From assembly GCA_013202845.1 (NCBI GenBank), contig JABMPT010000005.1, forward strand, positions 1 to 64,000: a DNA stretch of 64,000 nucleotides. The letters run 5' to 3'. This document shows, piece by piece, positions 41,798-52,895 of the stretch. This stretch comes from Candidatus Woesearchaeota archaeon. GTDB taxonomy: Archaea; Nanobdellota; Nanobdellia; Woesearchaeales; GCA-2686295. Made by a program: the position numbers and the translations under genes. The notes beneath the pieces are model-generated. The model searched no databases and was not told where the DNA came from. It saw only the letters and a program-made list of their open reading frames with translations. Positions within the stretch are counted from its first letter, which is position 1. Each line of letters begins with the position of its first letter.

Positions 41798-44083
41798 TTG
41801 GCAGAGAAGGATGTGTTCTCCTACGAAACACAAAGACAAGGGGAGGACAATGTTTTAAAAATTGATTGTGAGAAAGTAACTAGGGTTCCCTCTATTGAGG
41901 ACGATGAACTTTATATGGCTAAAACAGCCGAGTTTCTGAATGAGAATCCTGGAACAACAAAGATTATTTTTTCTCAGAAAAGAGATTATGAATATGATTA
42001 TGCCCAGACAATCATGCTGACAGAAATGGCACATCTGTACAACGAGCTTCTTAAAAACAAAGAGTTGTTCAGCTATGAATCATTCAGGGCCTATGATGAA
42101 GGAGGAAGACAGGATGCAAAATTCAATGAAATAAGAAACAGCATCTTCAATTTTCTGAAAAAGGACCCTATGGGCTGCTATGTAACGCTTAAGAGAATCC
42201 ACAGGAGGGAAAACATTCTATTGGATAAGAGCAAGGACAAGAAAAGCATAAGCTCTCACAAGAAATACGTCCAACTAGTGGAATACCTGATAAAACTTCT
42301 TGAGAATACCAAGATAATAACAATTCTCAAGCCTTTCTCAGCAGGGCACAGGGTTGGTACAAGGGATATTTACAGGAAGGTCTTCAGTCCAACCATCAAG
42401 CCAGATTTCATGTTCACAAGATTAATGGCTACATATCCAAAAGACGCAACAGAAATGGACAATTATGATGTAGAAGATTCTGAAGTAGTGATTTTTGAAT
42501 TGAATGATGACATACAATATCTTTATCACGTTACCCCACCAGAATTTAAATTAAACGAGGATAAATATGAAATATTAGACCTTGCCAGAAATATAATGGC
42601 AGAGCACAAACCAGAAAAACAGGATTTTGTTGATCCTGAAAGGATGAGAGAGGTTTTCTACAATGTTGGTCATGATTTACTGGAAGAATTGGCAAATTAT
42701 CGAAATATGAAACTTAGTAAAAAAGAATTGAATGAACTAACACAGATTCTTATCAGATATACTGTCGGCTTTGGACTGATAGAAGTTCTGCTACAAGATC
42801 CAAAAATTCAAGATATAACAATAAACAGTCCCATGGGTCAAATACCTATGTTCATAGTACACCAAGACTTTGGAGAGTGTAAAACAAATATCCTGCCAAG
42901 TATTGATGATGGAGAATCTTGGGCTTCAAAACTAAGACTTCTCTCTGGTAGACCATTGGACGAGGCAAATCCTGTTCTTGACACAGAAATAGAGATACCG
43001 ACGATTGCAAACGCCAGAGTTGGAGTGATTGCACCTCCTCTGAATCCTTCTGGGATAGCCTATGCCTTCAGAAGACACAGGGACAAACCATGGACTCTTC
43101 CATTATTCATAAAACACAAAATGATTAATTCTCTAGCTGCAGGGATTCTTAGTTTCATAATTGATGGCAGCAGAACAATGCTCATAGCTGGAACTAGAAG
43201 CGCTGGAAAAACTTCTCTTCTCGGCTCATTAATGGTCGAGATAATGAGAAAATACAGGATGATAACCATAGAAGACACTTTGGAGTTACCAACAAATTCA
43301 CTTAGAAAGCTCGGCTACAATATCCAATCTATGAAAGTTGCTTCTGCACTTTCAAAAGGAAGCTCTGAAGTCCCTGCTGATGAAGGAATAAGAACAACTC
43401 TAAGACTTGGGGATTCATGCTTGATAATCGGCGAGGTTAGAAGTACAGAAGCAAAAGCATTGTATGAAGCCATGAGAGTTGGTGCTTTAGCTAATGTTGT
43501 TGCCGGAACAATACATGGTGATAGCCCATATGGTGTTTTTGACAGAGTTGTCAATGATTTAGAAGTTCCTAGGACAAGCTTCAAAGCCACAGATATTATA
43601 GTTGTTGCCAATCCTATAAAAAGCGCTGACGGACTTCACAGATGGAGAAGAGTAACCCAGATAACAGAGGTTAGAAAACTTTGGGAAGATGATCCTATGA
43701 GAGAAGGTGGCTTCATAGATCTGATGAAGTATAATTCAAAAACAGATCAATTAGAGGTTTCTGATGATTTAATTAATGGCGAATCTGAAATACTTAAAGG
43801 AATAGCCGGAAATGTCAAGGAATGGGCCGGTAACTGGGATGCAGTATGGGATAACATCATGTTAAGAGCAAATATGAAGGAGCTATTGGTGAAAACAGCT
43901 GAAAAAGAGAAGAATGACGAATTATTGGAAGCACCTTTTGTTATCAGGTGCAATGATGAGTTTCACAGGATAAGTGACAAAGTCAAGGATAAAACAGGCA
44001 AGCTTGACTCCAAGAGAATACTTTTTGAATGGAAAGAATGGTTAAAAAAAGAGGTTCGCAAGAATAATTCCAAAAATGGATGA
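41798..44083 (+). CDS. FlaI/TadA-type secretion ATPase with long N-terminal extension
   Basis: Walker A AGTRSAGKTSLLGSL; ITIEDTLELP; LIIGEVRSTEAKALYEAMRVGALANVVAGTIHGDS; TTG start after GAGGTGAG. Confidence 0.93.
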   Translation: MAEKDVFSYETQRQGEDNVLKIDCEKVTRVPSIEDDELYMAKTAEFLNENPGTTKIIFSQKRDYEYDYAQTIMLTEMAHLYNELLKNKELFSYESFRAYDEGGRQDAKFNEIRNSIFNFLKKDPMGCYVTLKRIHRRENILLDKSKDKKSISSHKKYVQLVEYLIKLLENTKIITILKPFSAGHRVGTRDIYRKVFSPTIKPDFMFTRLMATYPKDATEMDNYDVEDSEVVIFELNDDIQYLYHVTPPEFKLNEDKYEILDLARNIMAEHKPEKQDFVDPERMREVFYNVGHDLLEELANYRNMKLSKKELNELTQILIRYTVGFGLIEVLLQDPKIQDITINSPMGQIPMFIVHQDFGECKTNILPSIDDGESWASKLRLLSGRPLDEANPVLDTEIEIPTIANARVGVIAPPLNPSGIAYAFRRHRDKPWTLPLFIKHKMINSLAAGILSFIIDGSRTMLIAGTRSAGKTSLLGSLMVEIMRKYRMITIEDTLELPTNSLRKLGYNIQSMKVASALSKGSSEVPADEGIRTTLRLGDSCLIIGEVRSTEAKALYEAMRVGALANVVAGTIHGDSPYGVFDRVVNDLEVPRTSFKATDIIVVANPIKSADGLHRWRRVTQITEVRKLWEDDPMREGGFIDLMKYNSKTDQLEVSDDLINGESEILKGIAGNVKEWAGNWDAVWDNIMLRANMKELLVKTAEKEKNDELLEAPFVIRCNDEFHRISDKVKDKTGKLDSKRILFEWKEWLKKEVRKNNSKNG

Positions 44084-46292
44084 CAAGAATGTTGATAATA
44101 TCAAGAAGAAATACCAGGCCAAGATCAGTTCTGAGTTACACGAGAAGAAAAGCGATCTGAAACCCATAACCTCTAAAGATTATAATAGCTTCAAAAGTGA
44201 ATATCTCCCTAAACATTTATCTTTCTATGAAAAAGCATGTAATTTTTCAGAGAAACTCCTAAAAATAAAAGCTGAGAAAGCAAAGATTCCAACATATCAG
44301 GAAGCAATTGATATATGTCATTTGAATATAACGCCTACAGGCGCCGCTAGTTTTCCAATTGCAGTCTTCATGTTTTTCTTATTCCTTGGATTGTTCATTG
44401 GTTTTGTACTACCTTATGCATTTGGAGGAGCAACTAGTTACTTCCTGATAATAATGTCCATATTCATAGGTATTGGTGTAATGATACCTCTTGGCAATCT
44501 GCCTTTCTTCTTTGCCAATAATTGGCGTATGAAGGCAAGTAACGAAATGGTTCTTTGCATATTCTATATCGTAACCTACATGAGGCATAACTCAAATCTT
44601 GAGCTGGGTGTTGATTTTGCTGCAGAACATCTTTCTCCTCCTCTATCTATTGACCTCAAGAAGATTGTATGGAATATCGAGACTGGAAAATTCCATTCAA
44701 TAAAGGAGTCAATTGATGATTATCTTGAAAGCTGGAGAAAGTGGAATCTTGAATTCATAGAGAGCATGCATTTGATAGAATCATCCTTGTATGAGGCTTC
44801 TGAAGGCAGGAGGTTGGATGCACTTGATAAATCCTTGAGTGTAATGCTTGAAGAGACCTATGAGAAGATGCTTCACTACGCCCAGAATCTTAAATCACCA
44901 TTGACAACATTGCACATGATGGGTATAATCCTGCCAATCCTTGGATTGGTTATTCTTCCTTTGGTTGTTAGTTTCATGCCAGAGGTAAAATGGTATCACC
45001 TATTCACTCTTTACAATATCATATTACCTGCAGCGGTTTTTTATCTTGGAAAAATCATTCTTTCAAAGAGACCCACAGGTTATGGAGACTCTGATATCTC
45101 CAAAACAAGTAAAGAAGTCAGAAAATATAAGAATATACTTATAAGACTGGGTAATTTTGAGATTAAGATACACCCAATAATTCTTTCAATAATAGTCATT
45201 GTTGTGTTTTTGTTTATAGGGTTTTCTCCTTTGATGATACACGCGGTCCTTCCGAATTTTGATTGCAGTGTTGGTGAAGAATCTGGTTGTATGAATTCAT
45301 TAACTCACCCCAATGCAAAGTATTACTTCTTAGGCTACAGGGATGAAACAGACTCTGAAGGATCTCCAACAGGAAAAATAATAGGGCCATATGGTATTGG
45401 AGCGACACTTCTTAGCTTAGCAATACCTTTTGGATTAGGGCTCGGAGTTGGATTGTATTTCAAGTTTCGTTCAAAGAATGTCATAAAGATAAGGAACGAG
45501 GCGAAGAAACTTGAGCAAGAGTTTGCTTCAGCATTATTCCAGCTGGGAAATAGATTGGGAGATGGTTTTCCTGCAGAGATAGCTTTTGGCAAGGTTTCCA
45601 AGGTTATGGAGGGAACTGTTTCTGGAAAGTTCTTTGACACTGTAAGCGGCAATATAAGGAGATTGGGCTTCAGCGTGGAGCAGGCAATCTTTGACCCTGA
45701 AAAAGGAGCCATAGCATATTTTCCATCTCCGATAATTGAGAGTTCTATGAAGGTTCTTGTTGAGAGCAGCAAGAAAGGACCTTTGGTTGCCAGCAATGCA
45801 TTGATTAATGTGTCAAATTACATAAAAGAAATGCATAGGGTTGATGAGAGATTAAGGGACTTGATGGCAGATGTTATCAGCAGTATGAAATCACAGATAT
45901 CCTTTTTGACACCTGCTATCTCTGGAATCGTCATTGGAATAACAAGCATGATAACAGCCATACTGGGAACACTTGGAGATAAACTTGGTCAATTGGCTTC
46001 TGAAGCAGAAGGGGTTGCAGGTGGAGGTGTGCTTAGCATGTTTGGCGCTGGAGTTCCAACATTCCATTTCCAAGTAATAGTTGGACTGTACGTTATTCAG
46101 ATAGTATATCTTTTGACAATCCTAATAAACGGCATAGAGAATGGTTCTGATAAACTGAATGAAAGATTCTTGATTGGAAAAAACTTGATAAGAACATCCA
46201 TTACATACACCATTGTTGCTTTCATCATAATGGTGTTATTCAACCTAATAGCTGGTAGCATCATGGGTTCTTTAACCGCTAGCGTAGGATAA
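44076..46292 (+). CDS. FlaJ/TadC-type membrane platform protein
   Basis: Two T2SF-like halves; LSPPLSIDLKKIVWNIETG; multiple TM; follows ATPase with overlap. Confidence 0.85.
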   Translation: MDDKNVDNIKKKYQAKISSELHEKKSDLKPITSKDYNSFKSEYLPKHLSFYEKACNFSEKLLKIKAEKAKIPTYQEAIDICHLNITPTGAASFPIAVFMFFLFLGLFIGFVLPYAFGGATSYFLIIMSIFIGIGVMIPLGNLPFFFANNWRMKASNEMVLCIFYIVTYMRHNSNLELGVDFAAEHLSPPLSIDLKKIVWNIETGKFHSIKESIDDYLESWRKWNLEFIESMHLIESSLYEASEGRRLDALDKSLSVMLEETYEKMLHYAQNLKSPLTTLHMMGIILPILGLVILPLVVSFMPEVKWYHLFTLYNIILPAAVFYLGKIILSKRPTGYGDSDISKTSKEVRKYKNILIRLGNFEIKIHPIILSIIVIVVFLFIGFSPLMIHAVLPNFDCSVGEESGCMNSLTHPNAKYYFLGYRDETDSEGSPTGKIIGPYGIGATLLSLAIPFGLGLGVGLYFKFRSKNVIKIRNEAKKLEQEFASALFQLGNRLGDGFPAEIAFGKVSKVMEGTVSGKFFDTVSGNIRRLGFSVEQAIFDPEKGAIAYFPSPIIESSMKVLVESSKKGPLVASNALINVSNYIKEMHRVDERLRDLMADVISSMKSQISFLTPAISGIVIGITSMITAILGTLGDKLGQLASEAEGVAGGGVLSMFGAGVPTFHFQVIVGLYVIQIVYLLTILINGIENGSDKLNERFLIGKNLIRTSITYTIVAFIIMVLFNLIAGSIMGSLTASVG

Positions 46293-46310: not shown

Positions 46311-46405
46311 TGGGGACGCCGGGATTTGAACCCGGGACACCTAGATCTTCAGTCTAGTGCTCTTTACTGCGCATGATCTTGCGTCCCAGTCTGAGCTACG
46401 TCCCC
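46311..46405 (-). tRNA. tRNA-Phe(GAA) with ~21-nt intron in D-loop (intron about 46364..46384)
   Basis: GGGGACG/CGTCCCC acceptor; D-stem GCTC/GAGC; anticodon arm CTAGA-CTGAAGA-TCTAG; T-arm CCGGG-TTCAAAT-CCCGG; D-loop carries an extra 21 nt with relaxed BHB potential. Confidence 0.92.
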
Positions 46406-46406
46406 T

Positions 46407-46691
46407 CTATAATTTTGTCAAGGTTCCGTTTCTACCAGTCGTGACTTGCATCTCTCCCTGCCACTCATTGACATAGCCGTCTTTGAGTTCTACCTTGTCA
46501 CCGACTTTGACTAGGTCTATTTGTTCATTCCAGAGTGTCATTGCAACTTCTCCAGAATCATCCTTTATAGTTGCATTGGCAACTCTACCAGGATCTCCGA
46601 ACTTCTGGAATTCACGGACAGGGCTTATATCTGTTACCTCTGCCTGCAAATCAACACTTCCTTGTCGTGGTTTTAATTCACTTATTTTCAT
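46407..46691 (-). CDS. Single OB-fold (RPA/SSB-like) protein
   Basis: VDLQAEVTDISPVREFQKFGDPGRVANATIKDDSGEVAMTLWNEQIDLVKVGDKVELKDGYVNEWQGEMQVTTG. Confidence 0.85.
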   Translation of the reverse strand: MKISELKPRQGSVDLQAEVTDISPVREFQKFGDPGRVANATIKDDSGEVAMTLWNEQIDLVKVGDKVELKDGYVNEWQGEMQVTTGRNGTLTKL

Positions 46692-46712: not shown

Positions 46713-48218
46713 CTATTTAAAGCTTTTGATGTCCTTGAATCTTATTTCTCCAGAAATCAAGGCATTAAGCACTTCCTTTAGCTTGGCTATCTTAACCCTT
46801 TTCTGCTTTTCAGTATCTCTATCCCTGATAGTCACAGCCTTATCCTTCAAGGAATCATAATCAATAGTAATTGCATAAGGTGTTCCCTCCTCTGCAGCTC
46901 TAAGGTATCTCTTCCCTATGGATGCTGTTTCATCATATTTGCACAGAATGTCGTCCCTTAAGTCCTCATAAACCTTCTTTGCCAGTTTTGTCAGCTCTGG
47001 TTTTTTCAAGAGAGGTAAAACAATTGCTTTGAAAGGAGCCACATTTACAGGTAGTTTCAGAATTGACTTTCCTTCTCCTTCTTTCTTCTTCTGATAATAA
47101 TTGTCAAGCAATGCAAAAGCTGGTCTTCCAATGCCAAACGCTATCTCTAAAACATGCGGAACTTGCTTCTTGTTATTCAAATCAAGAACACTCATATTGA
47201 TACCTGAGAACTTTGAATGCTGCTTTAAATCATAATCTGTTCTGTCATGGACACCACATAGCTCTGTCCAGCCAAAACTTTTCAGGTTTGCTTCTATATC
47301 CCATGCATCAGCTGCGTAAAAAGCTTTTTCCTCAGGTCCGTGCTGAACCAGTCTTAATTGCTTGGCAGGGATTCCTATTTTCAGAAATGTTTCGTACGCA
47401 ATATATATTGTGTATGCATAAGCCTCGTTTTTCAGCCATTTCTTTTTCATGGCATCCGTTAAAGCTATGTTCTGGGCTTCTTTTCCTTTCTCATGATCTT
47501 TCCAGTTAAGCAATGGTACTTTCTTGTTCTTTATCTTATTGTACTTCTCAAACCTGTTCTTCTGATCCTTGAATAAGAACAATTGCGCCTCTGCCTGTGT
47601 AAACTCCCTTGTCCTCAAAAGATGCTGTCTAGGGCTTATCTCATTCCTGTAAGCATTACCTATCTGAAAGACTCCAAAAGGCAGTTTCTTCCTGAAAAAG
47701 TCATAATATCTCAAGAATTGCAGATAGGTAGTAGTCGCTGTCTCAGGCCTGATATAAGCTTCAGTGCCAATACCTACCTTGGTTTTCATCATTAAGTCAT
47801 GCTCTTTAATATCTGAGCCAAGAACTGCCTGACAGCTTGGACATTTAACCTTGTTTTTTGCTAAAAAATCTTTGCGATTAGTTATCTTCTTATCAGGAAA
47901 CAACTCTTCAAGCAACTGCTCAACCTTGAATGATGATTTGCATTTCTTACAGTCAATCATAGGGTCTGAAAAGCCACTTAGATGTCCTGATGCATCCCAA
48001 ACCTTCTTAGGCATTATAGTAGGACACTCCACTTCAAAGAAATCCTTCTCAGTGAAAACATCTCTTATGATATTCTCAACATTATTCTTCAATAGTTTTC
48101 CTAGAGGTGCATAAGTATAGAACCCTGCTGAACCACCATATATCTCTGGTTCTGGCCCCCATATGAATCCTTTCTGCTGTGCAAAGGAAATAAGTTCTTG
48201 CAAAAACTCTTTGGTCAT
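46713..48218 (-). CDS. glyS: Glycyl-tRNA synthetase (class II, alpha2)
   Basis: GFIWGPEPEIYGGSAGFYTYAPLGKLLKNNVEN; IRPETATTTYLQFLRY; IGNAYRNEISPRQHLLRTREFTQAEAQLF. Confidence 0.95.
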   Translation of the reverse strand: MTKEFLQELISFAQQKGFIWGPEPEIYGGSAGFYTYAPLGKLLKNNVENIIRDVFTEKDFFEVECPTIMPKKVWDASGHLSGFSDPMIDCKKCKSSFKVEQLLEELFPDKKITNRKDFLAKNKVKCPSCQAVLGSDIKEHDLMMKTKVGIGTEAYIRPETATTTYLQFLRYYDFFRKKLPFGVFQIGNAYRNEISPRQHLLRTREFTQAEAQLFLFKDQKNRFEKYNKIKNKKVPLLNWKDHEKGKEAQNIALTDAMKKKWLKNEAYAYTIYIAYETFLKIGIPAKQLRLVQHGPEEKAFYAADAWDIEANLKSFGWTELCGVHDRTDYDLKQHSKFSGINMSVLDLNNKKQVPHVLEIAFGIGRPAFALLDNYYQKKKEGEGKSILKLPVNVAPFKAIVLPLLKKPELTKLAKKVYEDLRDDILCKYDETASIGKRYLRAAEEGTPYAITIDYDSLKDKAVTIRDRDTEKQKRVKIAKLKEVLNALISGEIRFKDIKSFK

Positions 48219-52768: not shown

Positions 52769-52895
52769 TGGGGACGGAGGGATTCGAACCCCCATCTGAC
52801 GGTATCTCCACGAATGGGCGCCATTAATCATTGGCATATGCCTCATCGCTCCAGTACTGGAGCCGACCATTCTAGCCAGGTTATACTACGCCCCC
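52769..52895 (-). tRNA. tRNA-Trp(CCA) with 53-nt intron at canonical 37/38 (intron 52804..52856)
   Basis: GGGGGCG/CGTCCCC acceptor; T-arm GGGGG-TTCGAAT-CCCTC; anticodon CCA in CTCCAG^...^A; BHB CTCC[AGT].../GGAG[ATA]. Confidence 0.85.

Follow-up and report, generated by a model that had tools for sequence, protein, structure and literature searches.

A predicted relaxed bulge-helix-bulge intron in the D-loop of a woesearchaeal tRNA-Phe gene and the endonuclease that may excise it

The minus strand of a Candidatus Woesearchaeota contig (JABMPT010000005.1) carries, at 46405-46311 of the window (i.e., the whole analysed stretch of 64,000 nucleotides), a complete tRNA-Phe(GAA) gene plus 21 additional bases in the D-loop. 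Very probably, this gene encodes an intron-containing precursor with a relaxed bulge-helix-bulge (BHB) motif, which the splicing endonuclease EndA and the ligase RtcB would convert into a 74-nt tRNA. The intron is held with high confidence to be real as a feature of the gene. The surprise is the enzyme, not the position of the intron.

In the proposed mechanism, (i) D-loop exon bases 16-18 would pair with the intron's 3' end, giving a helix which, with the intron hairpin, makes up the relaxed BHB; (ii) the tRNA splicing endonuclease would cut the precursor at two sites, GG^A and AA^A; and (iii) RtcB would join the halves, so that the 74-nt tRNA has a D-loop of the normal 9 bases. From the sequence, the pairing, the recurrence in relatives and the genes for both enzymes, we infer that the precursor is cut, that its halves are joined and that the mature tRNA is used. 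The endonuclease would most likely be a homotetramer of a single alpha-type gene product, able to act on relaxed motifs although it lacks the Crenarchaea-specific loop; on this step, the least certain, belief and doubt weigh about equally.

The interrupted gene and its surroundings

The whole primary unit (95 nt; 46311..46405, minus strand) has an acceptor stem GGGGACG/CGTCCCC, a T-arm CCGGG TTCAAAT CCCGG and an anticodon loop CTGAAGA, with the anticodon GAA at 46350-46348 (-). It consists of (i) a 5' exon (positions 1-20; 46385..46405, -) ending in AGACTGGG, as delimited by the splice register and in agreement with intronless relatives; (ii) a 21-nt intron, ACGCAAGATCATGCGCAGTAA, placed at 20/21 by sequence and register analysis (46364..46384, -); and (iii) a 3' exon (positions 21-73; 46311..46363, -), matching the spliced query at its positions 22-74 with 100% identity. 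The first-pass annotation had described this sequence, strand, location, cloverleaf and 21-nt D-loop insert, all of which are present as it claimed. Its relaxed BHB (ACTG/CAGT, GGA, AAA, CGCA/TGCG) was likewise recovered in all its parts, which place the intron at 20/21.

The central helix H is formed, with 4/4 pairs, by the exon strand ACTG (bases 16-18; 46387..46390, -) and, according to the register analysis, the intron strand CAGT (46366..46369, -). It is flanked by a 5' bulge GG^A (46384..46386, -), the predicted 5' splice site, and by a 3' bulge AA^A (46363..46365, -), predicted as the 3' splice site by register analysis and folding. The intron hairpin h' (CGCA-AGATCA-TGCG; 46370..46383, -) was obtained by the same two approaches. 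The 3' bulge joins an opposing AG into a 2x3 internal loop beside the D-stem. Since it opens into the D-loop, without a flanking helix, the motif is of the relaxed (HBh') kind; the strict hBHBh' form, in which an outer helix would adjoin the 3' bulge directly, is not made, nor do relaxed introns need it. In other respects the gene has what is expected of an archaeal BHB intron: a 4-bp exon-intron helix with 3-nt bulges, a standard tRNA upon removal of the insert, and endonuclease and ligase genes (EndA, RtcB) in the genome.

Of the two splice registers that restore the D-loop AGACTGGGA, only 20/21 has four H pairs. Among shuffled inserts, 4.9% gave four H pairs, and 0/2000 combined these with a 4-bp inner helix. 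The cloverleaf with the BHB has a folding energy of -38.8 kcal/mol, of which the intron pairing is worth 9.4 kcal/mol; unconstrained folding (MFE -40.6) favours a non-cloverleaf structure, by 1.8 kcal/mol.

With 14 contigs and a completeness of 91%, the assembly leaves some room for a decayed tRNA with another tRNA-Phe lying in the missing part. Such decay is very improbable: pairing is complete in the acceptor, anticodon and T stems, congeners retain the interrupted gene, and a search of the 91%-complete assembly with the spliced sequence found no second copy. A second intact tRNA-Phe is what the first-pass annotation had named as speaking against its own reading.

Simple scans were said to be likely to miss the gene, and this is true of the scanners tried (ARAGORN and the Rfam tRNA model), because (i) the window yielded no tRNA with default ARAGORN; (ii) intron-mode ARAGORN miscalled it as His(GUG), taking TCATG of the insert for the anticodon loop; and (iii) the match to the Rfam tRNA model was limited to positions 10-63 (D-arm to T-arm).

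Regarding the neighbourhood, the stop codon of a gene for an OB-fold (Ssb-like) protein (46407..46691, -) lies one base ahead of the tRNA. As a similar OB-fold gene recurs upstream of tRNA-Phe in three congeners (G003, G004 and G005), the arrangement suggests co-transcription of both genes. A co-directional glycyl-tRNA synthetase-like gene lies upstream (46713..48218, -); in a genome scan, its product matched GlyRS of Bacillus and of CPR bacteria at 36-37% along nearly the entire length, and the best 80 matches, mostly from Bacillus and relatives, included no archaeal locus. This pattern possibly reflects gene transfer, or merely the peptide patterns used. On the plus strand, two long ORFs (41798-46292) resemble an archaeal pilus/archaellum secretion ATPase and a membrane platform protein, the second without a Pfam match.

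Recurrence of D-loop introns across the order

The spliced sequence was searched in 60 relatives, and D-arm patterns in 359 genomes of the order. The congener G005 has no D-loop intron and carries the uninterrupted D-arm AGACTGGGAGAGC, while the congeners G001, G003 and G004 have introns of 37-42 nt that differ in sequence from the one of the window and lie at the identical insertion point, with 3/4 H pairs only. An uninterrupted D-arm, TAGCTCAGNCTGGGAGAGC, occurs in 131/359 genomes, G005 included. Taking out the 21 nt, which had been claimed to yield a normal 9-base D-loop, gives the D-arm that these uninterrupted relatives, the congener among them, possess.

A D-loop intron in tRNA-Phe was found in 33/359 genomes, belonging to 19 families, at 18/19, 19/20 or 20/21. 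Of the 33, the pattern search gave 30 and a further search, for longer inserts, gave two; the last is G001, where a contig end truncates the tRNA. The reversed-pattern control gave 0 matches. Given the strictness of the search pattern, both 33 and 131 are lower bounds. One genome (G141) has both interrupted and uninterrupted forms of the D-arm. Insert length ranges from 14 nt (G228) to 42 nt (G004) among the analysed set, that of G131 being slightly longer.

The exon strand and intron strand of H follow the register: AGCC/GGCT at 18/19, GCCT/GGGC at 19/20 and CCTG/CAGG at 20/21, with ACTG/CAGT in the gene of the window. When only registers restoring the consensus D-loop were permitted, 27 of the 32 inserts showed four H pairs and the remaining five three, while shuffled inserts would be expected to give four pairs in 1.1; the nominal probability, 3e-38, treats related genomes as independent. 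With three registers and three differing helix sequences, simple inheritance of one sequence does not account for the pairing. At the level of sequence comparison, the intronless relatives, the congener introns at the same point and the register-linked pairing in 32 genes support a relaxed-BHB intron at 20/21.

The same data make it highly improbable that the 21 nt are retained and the tRNA functions with a 30-base D-loop. Some tRNAs tolerate odd D-arms, and the gene of the window keeps G18, G19 and an intact D-stem, as retention would allow. Nevertheless, the insert pairs as a BHB precisely at the loop-restoring register, a behaviour which recurs in 32 genes and three registers, and inserts of 14 to 42 nt vary in sequence, yet the exons stay constant. 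Removal of the insert by splicing remains the preferred reading.

Some further observations concern tRNA-Phe in the order. G131 possesses two D-loop-interrupted copies (contigs C3 and C37), with H strands CAAG and CAGG, respectively. In other families, tRNA-Phe has inserts at 37/38 and in the T-arm. The T-loop is interrupted at about 59/60 in several loci (L112 of G005, L130 of G001, L117, L119 and L135), and in G053 by an insert of about 16 nt. Among open-licence papers, no literature on tRNA introns in Woesearchaeota was found.

Other introns and the splicing endonuclease

At least 35 tRNA genes were located in the genome of the window. D-loop inserts that form a four-pair H occur, too, in Gln(UUG), Gln(CUG), Arg(UCU) and, less surely, Arg(GCG); a 15-nt insert distinguishes the D-loop of Arg(UCU) from that of Arg(CCU). 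Anticodon-loop inserts occur in Trp, Met, initiator Met, Leu(CAA), Leu(UAA), Lys(UUU), Ile and Ser(CGA). A tRNA-Asp(GUC), on the minus strand of L013 and upstream of tRNA-Lys(UUU), likewise bears a D-loop insert, with about 30 additional bases lying between the D-loop and the anticodon stem, for which a register search gave no clean four-pair register restoring a normal D-arm.

The anticodon-loop introns of Trp CCA (52769-52895 of the window, -), Met CAU (L024) and Leu CAA (L025), all of them in tRNAs with C at position 34, share a hairpin TGA-GGC/GAC-loop-GCC/GTC-NATGATT. This motif has four matches in the window, counting both strands, one of which is the Trp intron, and it also appears in the Phe 37/38 introns of G022 and G026. 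The hairpin resembles a box C/D half or a kink-turn, and it is possibly an intron-encoded guide for 2'-O-methylation of C34.

The genome contains RtcB (E 2.8e-172) and a single splicing endonuclease gene, whose product has the catalytic Tyr, His and Lys. Contrary to an expectation of the first-pass annotation, the searches gave no heteromeric, two-unit or three-unit endonuclease and one short alpha-type gene only. A catalytic-domain match (Pfam) was obtained in 59/61 genomes, nearly always to one gene, with concordant results for the N-domain; among the 33 intron-bearing genomes, 31 have one EndA gene above the cut-off, one has two and one has none.

With regard to the known architectures, (i) neither mark of an (alpha-beta)2 enzyme with the Crenarchaea loop was found: the lysine loop (after YG..), which carries K-P-K in S. 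tokodaii 2cv8, is absent from the EndAs of the order aligned with it, and Pfam N-/C-domain searches gave no beta subunit gene; (ii) the epsilon2/ARMAN-loop type comprises three fused units (about 390 aa), while EndA has 201-214 aa and one unit; and (iii) one single-domain catalytic gene, its product about 175-230 aa long, and no second subunit, as in the alpha4 type, is what the searches found. The structure model of EndA (pLDDT 87) has the M. jannaschii alpha4 enzyme 1a79 as its closest fold (TM 0.92). An alignment of EndA took in 47 sequences. Support in the EndA protein tree was too weak for counting intron gains.

According to the literature, alpha4 enzymes cut canonical/strict BHBs only (PMC4033280), relaxed motifs require enzymes of the (alpha-beta)2 or epsilon2 type (PMC6379350), and lysine loops and the diversity of introns evolved together (PMC12397907). 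Relaxed-motif cutting would be due either to a lenient alpha4-type enzyme or to a partner missed by the profile search. That partner would be a structural subunit forming (alpha-beta)2 with the alpha protein, as in N. equitans, which would explain the relaxed specificity; it concerns the enzyme step alone and leaves the intron reading unaffected. In its favour, the best PDB sequence match of EndA is the N. equitans alpha subunit, which works with NEQ261. We consider it rather unlikely: Pfam N-/C-domain searches give one gene per genome, with few exceptions, the closest fold is that of the alpha4 enzyme, and an NEQ261-like protein scores E 1.6e-13 against the EndA of this genome, so such a protein should have been detected. 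Excision of relaxed non-canonical introns across the order by a homotetrameric alpha4 enzyme without a known specificity loop is, in turn, a proposition that could go either way.

Significance and comparison with known systems

The set of 33 genomes is weightier than the single intron: it offers natural D-loop substrates in three adjacent registers, whose introns measure 14 to 42 nt, together with relatives that lack the intron, and a single short endonuclease would serve all the substrates. With this set, the proposed connection between the architecture of the endonuclease and the diversity of introns can be put to a direct test. A lenient alpha4, if true, would break the accepted rule that, in evolution, a broad range of substrates came together with either a second subunit or a lysine loop. 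From a practical point of view, the generic scanners tried miss or miscall such D-loop-interrupted tRNAs.

In Crenarchaeota and Nanoarchaeota, non-canonical tRNA introns are known at 20/21 and at further sites of the D-arm (PMC4090602). The position is indeed non-canonical, as the earlier annotation held, but less unusual than it implied, being listed in reviews; the intron of the window is, in consequence, one further case of a known type. Its position, its relaxed BHB and its length (within 11-129 nt) are like those of the listed introns, and both occur beside canonical introns in other tRNAs. The listed cases have (alpha-beta)2 or epsilon2 enzymes (PMC4090602), whereas the present one comes from another archaeal order, probably within DPANN, with a single short alpha-type gene.

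In Thermoproteales and the Asgard Atabeyarchaeia/Freyarchaeia, as here, many tRNAs have non-canonical introns, some genes having two (PMC11291895); intron-bearing tRNAs are fewer in the present case. With the M. jannaschii alpha4 enzyme (1a79), EndA shares the single-domain alpha architecture, the fold, the catalytic triad and the lack of the Crenarchaea-specific loop; its KNRVAHST motif, in contrast, is common to the N. equitans alpha subunit and not to M. jannaschii. Enzymes of the M. jannaschii type reportedly act on strict BHBs only, whereas here relaxed D-loop motifs must be cut.
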